DNA of 64,000 nucleotides. Origin: Armatimonadota bacterium. Lineage in GTDB: Bacteria > Armatimonadota > Fimbriimonadia > Fimbriimonadales > Fimbriimonadaceae. The notes under the pieces are model-generated. The model worked only from the letters and a program-made list of their open reading frames with translations. It did not search any database and was not told the DNA's origin. Where the stretch lies: NCBI GenBank assembly GCA_016789105.1, contig JAEURN010000001.1:62001-126000 (forward strand). The letters are read 5' to 3'. This document shows, one piece after another, positions 36,126-38,419 of the stretch (position 1 is its first letter; every line of letters begins with the position of its first letter). The position numbers and the translations under genes were made by a program.

Positions 36126-36183
36126 CATAGGGGGGGCGACAATGAACTTTTGGCCTGCACACGGCATAATAAAGGAAAGAGGC

Positions 36184-36552
36184 GTGACCCGAACCCACTT
36201 TTTGCTCCGCCTGGTTTTGGCCACCTGCTTGGCCCTGGGTCTTATCCCAGCCCAAGCTGTAGCGAACCTGTGCGCCTCGGCAAAGCCCGCTTGCCATGCC
36301 GCGGCAAGCTGCTGCGGGGCAAGCAAAAAGTGTGGGTGCAAAGTCGATTCGCACCCAAAGCAAGCGGCTCATGCCGACCTTGCCCCCGCCCCGCCCCCGC
36401 TGCAGGTGATTTCCATCCCCGAGCCGGCGGCCACCGTATTGAAGTCAGCCGGGATCCCACCCCCCATCCGGTTCCCTGAGCCCAAAGCCCATGCTCCACC
36501 GGGCCCATCCCGTTCCCCCGGCGCCCCCCGCGCCCCTCCGATTGACCTGTGA
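36184..36552 (+). CDS. Small secreted Cys-rich and Pro-rich protein
   Basis: 122 residues from GTG 36184 (an ATG at 36142 would place extra residues before the signal peptide). Signal peptide: RTHFLLRLVLATCLALGLIPAQA. The mature part begins with eight cysteines in ~30 residues, in C/CH...CC...C.C spacing (CHAAASCCGASKKCGCK), then a Pro/Ala-rich tail without structure. Cys spacing suggests metal binding or disulfides. It precedes the YHS-repeat protein by 30 bases, so a shared metal or sulfur role is inferred. I do not recognise a named family. Confidence 0.6.
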   Translation: MTRTHFLLRLVLATCLALGLIPAQAVANLCASAKPACHAAASCCGASKKCGCKVDSHPKQAAHADLAPAPPPLQVISIPEPAATVLKSAGIPPPIRFPEPKAHAPPGPSRSPGAPRAPPIDL

Positions 36553-36582
36553 TCCCGTCACCGTTTGGGCTGATATGGCCCC

Positions 36583-37851
36583 ATGACGACCCAACAGGAC
36601 AATCAGATGAATTCAAAAACGCTTATTACCGCTTCACTGGCCTTGGCTGCACTTGGTGCCCTTGCCCAGTCCGACCAAAAACAAGAACTGGCCAGCCTCT
36701 CATGCCCAGTGCTGGGGAACCCAGTCTCGCCACAGAAAGACCTCTCGATCGAATACCGGGGACTTTCAATTTCGTTTTGCTGCCCGGGATGCGACGCCAA
36801 ATTCCTGGCCAACCCCGAGAAGTACTTGGAAGAAGCCTCCCATGACGGCAAGACCGTGGCAATCAGCCTGTTCGACCCGGTCAACCACAAACGGCTGGCC
36901 CTTGCCGATGCAGCGGCTACCCTGGACTTCCAGGGGATCCGGTACCCGTTTGCCACCGCGGCCGATGCCACGGAGTTCCGCTCTCTTCCCGGATCGTATG
37001 CCTACGCTCCCAGCCGGGAATCCGTGACCTGTCCGGTGATGAAGAAAACCGTCGAAAGCCACTCATCGGCGGCGGGATTTGCAGATTTCCGGGGGGTTCG
37101 CTACTATTTCTGCTGTCCCGGTTGCGACGAAGATTTTGCCAAGGATCCGGAAAAATTTGCGGCATCGGTTGCGGACAAGGTGCGGCCCGTGGCCGCCACG
37201 GCAGAAAAGGCCCATCCGCAATTGACTTTGGCGCCGACATGTGCCGGGTGTGCCGGTGAGGCGAGGCTTTTGAGCAATGGGGGGTTTGCCGGAAAATTCA
37301 CGGCGGCCTATCGGTTTGTGGCCATTGACGATGTCGCGGCCCGGCACCGGTTCACACTGGACTACGCTGTCACCCCCCGCCTCACCGTTGGAATCGAGCG
37401 CAGCGGTGGCGATGCGAGCCTTGCCCCAGTTCCCCGATTCCAAGACAACCCCGGCGACTTCCTCCGGTTTTCTGATGGCGACGCCCTGGTTATGCCGCGG
37501 TTCAGCTGGTTCGTCTCACCCGAAAAGGAGAACTGCCCGAGCTTCCTCGTCGGCATGGCCTCGGATCGGCTCAGCACGCCTCGCGGACAAGCCTTTTTTG
37601 CCACCGCCTCCAAGCACATCGCTGGAACCTCGGTCACGCCGTTCCTCAGCATAAAGACCAACACCTTCGATGGGCGGACGGTCATGCCCTTTGGAGTGAA
37701 TTACGCGTTGCCCGACAATTTCGTCCTGCAGGCGGTCAACGACGGCGACTACACGCACTTCTTGTTCACAAAAATGCTGGATCGGGCGTCGGTCAGCCTG
37801 TTGCTCGCCCGGAGCCGGTATTTCGGTTTCAGCGTCGCGGTGGGGTTTTAA
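36583..37851 (+). CDS. Exported protein with tandem YHS-like metal-binding repeats and a barrel-like C-terminal half
   Basis: 422 residues. After a signal peptide (MNSKTLITASLALAALGALA) comes YHS-like repeat 1 (SCPVLGNPVSP...FCCPGCDAKFLANPEKYL, ~34-80), a Cys-less repeat with the same spacing (ISLFDPVNHKRL...FQGIRYPF, ~90-140), and repeat 2 (CPVMKKTV...FCCPGCDEDFAKDPEKF, ~148-195). YHS modules bind heavy metals in P-type ATPases and related proteins. Residues ~215-422 contain TCAGCAGE and then alternating hydrophobic strands ending FSVAVGF, with a terminal Phe as in outer-membrane barrels. Start 36583 lies 6 bases after TGATAT; ATG 36607 with AGGA upstream is the alternative. Confidence 0.65.
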   Translation: MTTQQDNQMNSKTLITASLALAALGALAQSDQKQELASLSCPVLGNPVSPQKDLSIEYRGLSISFCCPGCDAKFLANPEKYLEEASHDGKTVAISLFDPVNHKRLALADAAATLDFQGIRYPFATAADATEFRSLPGSYAYAPSRESVTCPVMKKTVESHSSAAGFADFRGVRYYFCCPGCDEDFAKDPEKFAASVADKVRPVAATAEKAHPQLTLAPTCAGCAGEARLLSNGGFAGKFTAAYRFVAIDDVAARHRFTLDYAVTPRLTVGIERSGGDASLAPVPRFQDNPGDFLRFSDGDALVMPRFSWFVSPEKENCPSFLVGMASDRLSTPRGQAFFATASKHIAGTSVTPFLSIKTNTFDGRTVMPFGVNYALPDNFVLQAVNDGDYTHFLFTKMLDRASVSLLLARSRYFGFSVAVGF

Positions 37852-37855
37852 AGCC

Positions 37856-38311
37856 ATGGTTGCCGCAGCTCTGGTGCTCCTGGCCCAAGGCCAACTGGCC
37901 ACCCCTGCCCCGATGCCCGAACTCAACTTGAAAGACTTGCAAGGCAAGACATGGCGCAAAGAAGGGCTGGAACGAGACCGCGTCTATCTGGTCGAGTTCT
38001 GGGCAACCTGGTGCACAACGTGCCGGGCCATCCATCCGGAAGTCCAAAAGTTCGTCAAGTCTCAAGCCGAAGCCAAGTTCACCTACCTGGCAGTGAGCGT
38101 GGATGATGACCTTGGTGCCCTGCGCAAATGGGCAAAGGCCGAACAACCAGCCTATCCGGTTTTGATGGATCCCGATTTCGCCGCAATGGAGCGGTGGAAG
38201 GTGAAAGAGGTTCCCAGCCTGTTCTTTGTGCTCAACGGCAAGGTGTTGTGGCGGCACACGGGCTCTCTCAAATCGGCCGATTTGAATTCGGCCTTGGCAA
38301 AGATCAAATGA
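37856..38311 (+). CDS. TlpA/ResA-like exported thiol-disulfide redoxin
   Basis: 151 residues with a short signal-like N-terminus (MVAAALVLLAQGQLA). The thioredoxin fold has VEFWATWCTTCRAIHPE with active-site CTTC, and cis-Pro in VKEVPSLFFVLNGKV. This domain form usually reduces cytochrome c or metalloprotein thiols outside the cytoplasm. It starts 4 bases after the YHS-barrel gene, so it could keep the Cys-rich proteins reduced. The substrate is inferred from position only. Confidence 0.82.
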   Translation: MVAAALVLLAQGQLATPAPMPELNLKDLQGKTWRKEGLERDRVYLVEFWATWCTTCRAIHPEVQKFVKSQAEAKFTYLAVSVDDDLGALRKWAKAEQPAYPVLMDPDFAAMERWKVKEVPSLFFVLNGKVLWRHTGSLKSADLNSALAKIK

Positions 38312-38314
38312 AAA

Positions 38315-38334
38315 CGGCCCCCAATAGGGGGCCG
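38315..38334. terminator. Intrinsic-type terminator between redoxin gene and tRNA-Gly
   Basis: CGGCCCCC (38315-38322), AATA, GGGGGCCG (38327-38334). On the minus strand the stem is followed by TTTTC, so it terminates the tRNA-Gly transcript; it also ends 3 bases after the redoxin stop on the plus strand. Confidence 0.75.
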
Positions 38335-38344
38335 GAAACTGTTT

Positions 38345-38419
38345 TGGAGCGGGAAAGGAGATTCGAACTCCCGACCCTCTCGTTGGCAACGAGATGCTCT
38401 ACCACTGAGCTATTCCCGC
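38345..38419 (-). tRNA. tRNA-Gly (anticodon GCC)
   Basis: On the minus strand the 75-base sequence begins GCGGGAATAGCTCAGTGG and ends TTCCCGCTCCA, with the 3' CCA encoded. Acceptor stem GCGGGAA pairs with TTCCCGC. The anticodon loop reads TTGCCAA (GCC, reading GGC/GGT), and the T-arm has GGTTCGAATCC-type sequence. A promoter and a terminator flank it, so it is a single-gene unit. Confidence 0.97.

Follow-up and report, generated by a model that had tools for sequence, protein, structure and literature searches.

What is the task of three neighbouring genes, here called A, B and C, in the genome of an Armatimonadota bacterium? All three are plus-strand open reading frames (ORFs) within the 64,000-nucleotide stretch that we analysed (the window; positions 62001-126000 of contig 1, from a genome of 2.75 Mb that is 99.96% complete). 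A first-pass annotation had read them as a metal/redox cassette made of a Cys-rich peptide, a YHS-barrel protein and a TlpA-like redoxin, and the three same-strand ORFs are present where it had placed them. We found that they do form a unit, and that relatives of its parts keep company with metal genes, as the term cassette implied, but that the first gene is probably regulatory. The features of A indicate an upstream ORF (uORF) that encodes an arrest peptide resembling CutF and CruR and that regulates B and C, rather than a metal-handling protein.

The three genes are real and belong to one unit, in an arrangement that exceeds chance. A search for B covered 61 genomes, the window's own included, and found full-length B in five others, four of which belong to the same genus, the fifth being G008 (genomes and loci carry our own G and L labels); a seventh B was later found in G167. 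The earlier interpretation had turned on whether the genes stay neighbours in related genomes, and they do: the order A-B-C is kept in all four other genomes of the genus (G007, G003, G001 and G002). The unit of G007 and G003 occupies the chromosomal position that it has in the window, and that of G001 and G002 lies at unrelated places, which indicates that it can relocate intact. C adjoins B in six of the seven B loci, the window included. B most likely starts at 36607 rather than at the alternative 36583, because this is where its signal-peptide-like N-terminus begins, in agreement with the B starts of the orthologues, 54, 54, 86 and 56 nucleotides past their uORF stops. Of the gaps of about 30 and 4 bases first reported, the 4 nucleotides between B and C stand, while the distance from A to B becomes 54 nucleotides.

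The five A proteins of these genomes (122-138 residues, with 6-8 Cys and, by hydropathy, a hydrophobic N-terminus in every case) share one layout, in which a Cys cluster with CxC as its final motif is followed by a Pro-rich spacer and then by R[AG]PP, with one to three residues left ahead of the stop. Counted from the final Cys of the cluster to the Arg of R[AG]PP, the distance is 63, 62, 62, 63 and 64 residues. The PP pair of A lies at most 15 residues from the C-terminus, and a same-strand gene follows within 1000 nucleotides. The third bases of the RAPP codons vary among the orthologues, which suggests that selection acts on the amino acids. Gene A matched no Pfam or NCBIfam family. When the wider set of 18 uORFs described below was compared with known families, NCBIfam HYC_CC_PP gave a weak match (0.0065) to one, and identity with DUF2946 was rejected, as its profile matched none.

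To place A in a wider class, we scanned 756,862 bases, consisting of the window and 80 loci centred by choice on YHS and barrel genes, for ORFs that begin with a hydrophobic segment and carry R[AG]PP close to their C-terminus. This yielded 22 ORFs, 20 of them with at least three Cys, and in 18 of these 20 the spacing was 58-66 residues (outliers 43 and 73). Fourteen control motifs gave zero to three Cys-bearing matches each, one of them within the spacing range, and on this ground we rejected RAPP as a chance product of GC-rich sequence. A profile built from 18 such uORFs found 26 matches in 22 of the 61 genomes. Sixteen matches lay outside the building set, and 15 of these end in R[AG]PP, all at spacing 58-66, a figure biased by the fact that a profile built from this uORF class favours such matches. 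Among the genes directly downstream of uORFs of this class, Pfam identifies a CusB-type adaptor and an OEP efflux protein, and inspection by eye adds metallothionein-like Cys-rich proteins, YHS proteins, HMA-like proteins and barrels. At L168, L169, L172 and L178, the gene directly after the RAPP uORF encodes a small Cys-rich protein that may be a metallothionein under uORF control.

The end of A is also predicted to pair with the start region of B. The last codons and stop of A form the 5' strand of a hairpin, the 3' strand of which overlaps the AGGA at 36596-36599 ahead of the B start. The window RNA from the fourth RAPP codon to the B start has a minimum free energy of -25.1 kcal/mol (z -3.0, with 1 of 200 shuffles as good), and a duplex test gave p 0.027. 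The same layout recurs with other sequence in G007, G003, G001 and G002 (z -3.5, -4.5, -2.0 and -3.7) and at L067 and L150 (z -4.0 and -4.2), among nine cases tested overall. Over 35 uORFs the duplex test gave 10 at p<0.05 and a combined p of 5e-8, which is optimistic since many of the uORFs are related; the 35 also include doubtful downstream starts (short ORFs) such as those at L058, L120, L132, L138 and L175. With a footprint of the usual size, a ribosome halted at RAPP would hide the 5' strand wholly or for the most part. Since the last codons of A pair with the ribosome-binding stretch of B, such a ribosome would expose B.

On balance, we favour the interpretation that A-B-C is a self-contained envelope unit, probably metal-responsive, in which stalling on A switches on B and C. 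A would be translated and threaded through the Sec channel until the terminal RAPP reached the active centre of the ribosome and caused a pause; by residue count the Cys cluster, about 63 residues away, would then have just emerged on the periplasmic side. While paused, the ribosome would cover the last codons of A and free the ribosome-binding stretch of B, allowing translation of B and, with it, of C. The length of the pause would depend on the Cys cluster, through bound metal or a change in redox state, most simply as in CutF, with bound copper prolonging it. B would serve as a predicted outer-membrane protein of YHS2-CxxC type, and C as its thiol-disulfide partner. What the sequences show directly is the conserved unit, its spacing, RAPP, the hairpin, and the exchange of selenocysteine for Cys and shifting of domains described below; stalling, metal sensing and its sign, the choice of copper and a redox exchange linking C to B are deduced from them.

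The principle of such a uORF is known, so that the initial statement that no known named cassette matches this order holds, as far as we searched, for the B-C pair and not for the way in which it would be controlled. As described in the available parts of PMC9973294, stalling on CutF of Rhodobacter capsulatus (cutFOG) opens the next ribosome site, and bound copper prolongs the pause. CutF-like uORFs in that source are, like A, small exported Cys proteins with a Pro-rich end, a close same-strand downstream gene and a hairpin over the next Shine-Dalgarno sequence, and CusB and OEP are found next to members of the class. The CutF motif was placed in the SecY vestibule (about 30 residues of tunnel and about 17 of membrane, with a 45-residue spacer), whereas A has a spacer of 62-64 residues, RAPP in place of the CutF Pro motif, CxC instead of CxxxC, and a YHS2-CxxC-barrel and a TlpA as downstream genes. 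A count in the style used for CutF would put the CxC of A about 15 residues into the periplasm.

CruR of Bordetella pertussis, a DUF2946 protein, resembles A in combining a Cys motif with a C-terminal RAPP at fixed spacing and in heading a metal-related operon (PMC9426467, in its available parts). In contrast to A, with its DUF2946-free class (0/18) and spacing of 62-64, CruR has a spacing of 45 and acts through Rho termination across a 162-bp gap, where A and B have a 54-nucleotide gap and a hairpin. The same terminal RAPP/RGPP motif occurs in ApdA, ApdP and the peptides of a 2025 survey (PMC10951233, PMC10987492, PMC12992588); the available parts of these papers do not name YHS, a barrel or an Armatimonad, with word counts of 0 for YHS and Armatimonad. 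They do report that toeprints place the third residue of RAPP-type stalled ribosomes in the P site (PMC10987492), and that copper-related and thioredoxin genes lie downstream of RAPP peptides (PMC12992588).

A could instead be an exported metal-binding peptide in its own right, metallothionein- or chaperone-like, that works together with B and C, with RAPP and the spacing incidental. Its predicted export and Cys content agree with this, as do metallothionein-like ORFs directly upstream of two barrels (L048, L133). We nevertheless regard it as quite unlikely: the other uORF proteins are only 21-38% identical to A and yet keep the RAPP terminus, the fixed spacer and the hairpin, and uORFs of this type also precede unrelated metal genes. 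The export signal, CxC, 62-64 spacer, terminal RAPP and hairpin are features of a nascent-chain sensor, and the first description of A as a metal-handling peptide is not supported. Such a sensor might respond to periplasmic thiol redox, through a disulfide in the Cys cluster, rather than to metal, and B-C would then be a redox-repair unit. C is a thiol-disulfide protein, relatives of B carry selenols, and thioredoxin genes are among RAPP uORF targets in the available text of PMC12992588. However, uORFs of this class also precede efflux parts, HMA-like genes and metallothionein-like genes, which points to metal and leaves the redox sensor an unlikely candidate.

Turning to the genes that A would control, B matches Pfam YHS over three stretches (E 4.6e-20; 71.8 bits against a gathering cut-off of 30.3). 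The motif PTCAGCAGEA is invariant from its first Pro to its final Glu-Ala in six B proteins, and both of its Cys are encoded by TGT in B, with no in-frame TGA there. The YHS part of the original YHS-barrel assignment was confirmed. The barrel, by comparison, is predicted, not proven, from sequence, namely the C-terminal Phe and OMP_b-brl matches below the cut-off in two relatives (0.037 and 0.055). DUF5777 was considered for the barrel-like tail and rejected (0.24, below cut-off), a PDB sequence search with B gave only chance matches to picornavirus VP4, and AlphaFold2 models made without an alignment (mean predicted local distance difference test scores of 35.4 for B and 34.1 for the barrel part alone) were too poor for a fold search. 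A contig search gave one distant YHS match in Lokiarchaeota. The only other YHS gene found in the genome of the window is a 193-residue gene with several YHS stretches and no barrel, near a contig end (L051:7845-8426; G000:C2, minus strand). At L013:493-2205 (minus strand) and similar loci, exported proteins of about 571 residues combine YHS domains with YtkA-like and Ig-like matches.

C was correctly recognised as a TlpA-like redoxin: it matches AhpC-TSA/Redoxin/Thioredoxin at 8.8e-17 and carries WCxxC. It shares this site and the fold family with TlpA/ResA, stays below the curated cut-offs for ResA (55 of 170 bits) and DsbE, and differs in that its relatives are fused to a YHS-like domain.

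The site of the two Cys in B takes another form in barrels that lack YHS. A barrel profile of 25 rows, which also picks up a weaker second subfamily, matched 66 of 291 genomes from the phylum. We counted 65 barrel genes in fetched loci, among them near-identical copies (for example L053/L125/L126, L049/L050 and L060/L061); the second subfamily (about 1e-7 to 1e-17) and fragmentary matches in G123, G149 (two), G099, G070:C514 and G168:C627 fall outside this set. The 65 comprise 52 UxxU, 3 UxxC, 2 CxxU and 6 CxxC genes (U, selenocysteine) and 2 without the motif. The standalone motif reads mostly PT*TG*PGEG with two in-frame TGA codons, and in all 57 standalone genes that bear the motif, one or both of the exact positions of B's two Cys are occupied by in-frame TGA. 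The CxxC genes (the six and that of the window) are exactly the YHS-fused barrels. This suggests that the standalone barrels are a candidate selenoprotein family, mostly UxxU, with B as its Cys version.

A hairpin resembling a selenocysteine insertion sequence (SECIS) lies 3' of the second motif codon. It is 92% paired in 50 distinct U-form sequences, compared with 79% in shuffles and 43-63% when slid, and has 40 compensatory cells, and 0 of 1000 shuffles are as good. UxxC genes retain much of this hairpin, and CxxC genes do not. Judging the selenocysteine machinery by tRNA-Sec, we found it at a strict threshold in 142 of the 291 genomes and in 43 of the 50 with U-form barrels (Fisher 2.8e-9, relatedness ignored); a looser look at the remaining seven added G068. 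The window genome has tRNA-Sec (72.7 bits) and a barrel in Cys form only. If the TGA codons were real stops, the standalone barrels would be decayed or split genes and there would be no selenoprotein family. Selenium incorporation is a prediction from sequence, and tRNA-Sec was not seen in 6 of the 50 genomes (completeness 70-97%). Set against this are the recurrence of both codons at identical positions in 52 genes, the mixed UxxC and CxxU forms, in-frame export signals upstream and a conserved barrel downstream of the TGA codons, the covarying hairpin and tRNA-Sec in 44 of 50 genomes, and we consider real stops highly improbable.

The barrel family appears undescribed in the literature and libraries searched. 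Among the barrels scanned, none had a noteworthy match in NCBIfam or one above the cut-off in Pfam, which sets them apart from the listed selenoprotein families. Literature searches (selenoprotein with Armatimonadota; selenocysteine/UxxU/beta-barrel; the motif) did not find such a family, nor did the accessible parts of two selenoproteome reviews (PMC13188914, PMC9312934). The accessible text of PMC13188914 does describe UxxU redox or metal motifs like that of the standalone barrels in Prx-like, mercuric-reductase-like and FmdB selenoproteins, and one other outer-membrane barrel family with selenocysteine, MtrB/PioB. The second, weaker barrel subfamily may be another candidate selenocysteine/Cys family, with CPLU at L123 and CPLC at L154 near the N-terminus; both of these barrels also lie behind RAPP uORFs, that of L154 directly. 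The metallothionein-like ORFs at L048 and L133 are very short and Cys-rich, have CPCC/CPPC repeats and lie directly upstream of UxxU barrels.

The position of YHS varies with the form of the barrel. TlpA is the next gene after six of the seven YHS-fused barrels, the window included, and none of these TlpA has YHS; it is also next after 27 of the 57 U-form barrels, where all 27 have an N-terminal YHS-like domain. YHS thus sits on the barrel or on TlpA and never on both, and YHS, the CxxC/UxxU barrel and TlpA appear to be one module set in two fusion states. The recurrence of the same three modules in both states is good evidence that they act together, and it is plausible that C keeps B reduced.

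We favour copper as the metal because of the precedent for YHS domains (PMC4626032, in its available part), the CusB and OEP genes behind the same uORF class, and the P-type ATPases with HMA, HMBD and YHS domains that flank the L053 module. More generally, the relatives of every part have heavy-metal genes as neighbours, namely such ATPases, CusB/HlyD_D23 and OEP efflux parts, and ArsR regulators. TlpA proteins are known in copper-site assembly, and B-C might assemble a copper enzyme by TlpA-type delivery rather than serve in metal defence. No oxidase or cytochrome genes were seen by eye in the gene list beside A-B-C in the window, however, and relatives have efflux and regulator genes beside them; assembly of an enzyme is accordingly an improbable role.

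Several observations weigh against a metal-responsive unit switched on by stalling, or against parts of this interpretation. In G008, B has neither A nor C next door, and G167 has B-C without the RAPP uORF. L066 folds differently, L154 lacks the hairpin layout, and the duplex test was not significant for G003, G001 and G002. No adjacent TlpA was found for 28 of the 57 U-form barrels, with 2 more at contig ends. A PDB profile search gave no match, and the barrel fold is unconfirmed. The sign of CruR is opposite to that of CutF, since metal relieves the arrest and the genes go off (PMC9426467, available part); as CruR has the same RAPP, either sign is possible for A. Finally, ArsR-type regulators with an LCVCE site lie within 2.5 kb of the barrel at 7 of the 65 loci (L048, L055, L062, L117, L122, L127 and L134), which makes Cd, Pb, As or Hg candidate metals as well.

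Taken one step further, the locus may belong to an undescribed envelope metal/redox system, a proposal that we hold with as much doubt as belief. It would comprise a new family of outer-membrane barrels with a periplasmic N-terminal UxxU site served by a YHS-TlpA protein; in the lineage of the window the site would be Cys and YHS would be on the barrel, and an arrest peptide with RAPP and a 62-64-residue ruler would read the periplasm proper, not the Sec vestibule. The rule of a Cys motif, about 62 residues, RAPP and a hairpin over the next ribosome site would make it possible to predict metal-responsive operons within a group that has been little studied, and A would offer a natural longer ruler for testing the distance idea proposed for CutF. 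The standalone barrels would be a further candidate family of selenoproteins, one in which a predicted outer-membrane protein bears the UxxU site; as UxxU, UxxC, CxxU and CxxC versions occur naturally, the benefit of selenium can be addressed directly. The switch between selenocysteine and Cys coincides with the location of YHS, which hints that a single substrate may be the target of both metal binding and redox chemistry.

Table 1. Features of the A-B-C locus, in window coordinates.
Feature	Position	Strand	Basis or remark
Shine-Dalgarno-like aaaggaaagagg ahead of A	36171-36182	+	upstream of GTG start
Gene A, predicted exported Cys-rich arrest-peptide uORF	36184..36552	+	122 residues, GTG start; same-layout orthologues in G007, G003, G001, G002
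Last Cys motif of A, C50-G-C52, putative metal/redox-sensing site	36331..36339	+	CxC in 5/5 orthologues
RAPP codons CGC GCC CCT CCG, putative ribosome stall site	36529..36540	+	three residues before stop; R[AG]PP in 5/5 orthologues
Predicted hairpin	36540..36604	+	36540-36544 pairs with 36600-36604; 36546-36550 pairs with 36594-36598
Gene B: signal peptide, two YHS domains, CxxC, predicted outer-membrane barrel	36607..37851	+	Pfam YHS, orthologue alignment
YHS domains of B	about 36706-36831 and 37024-37164	+	Pfam YHS
C212-A-G-C215 of B	37240..37251	+	site is UxxU, UxxC or CxxU in standalone relatives
Beta-barrel part of B (predicted), ends in Phe	37264..37848	+	from alignment; fold unconfirmed
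Gene C, TlpA/ResA-like exported redoxin	37856..38311	+	Pfam, NCBIfam and PDB matches
Active site CTTC of C	38012-38023	+	WCxxC site
GC-rich palindrome, possible terminator	38315..38334	.	terminator-like match on minus strand only; between C and convergent tRNA-Gly

The unit is flanked by a biotin-ligase-like gene and an inositol-phosphatase-like gene. A sigma-70 scan found no promoter. Beyond C, a tRNA-Gly(gcc) at 38345-38419 on the minus strand converges on A-B-C, with the GC-rich palindrome in between.

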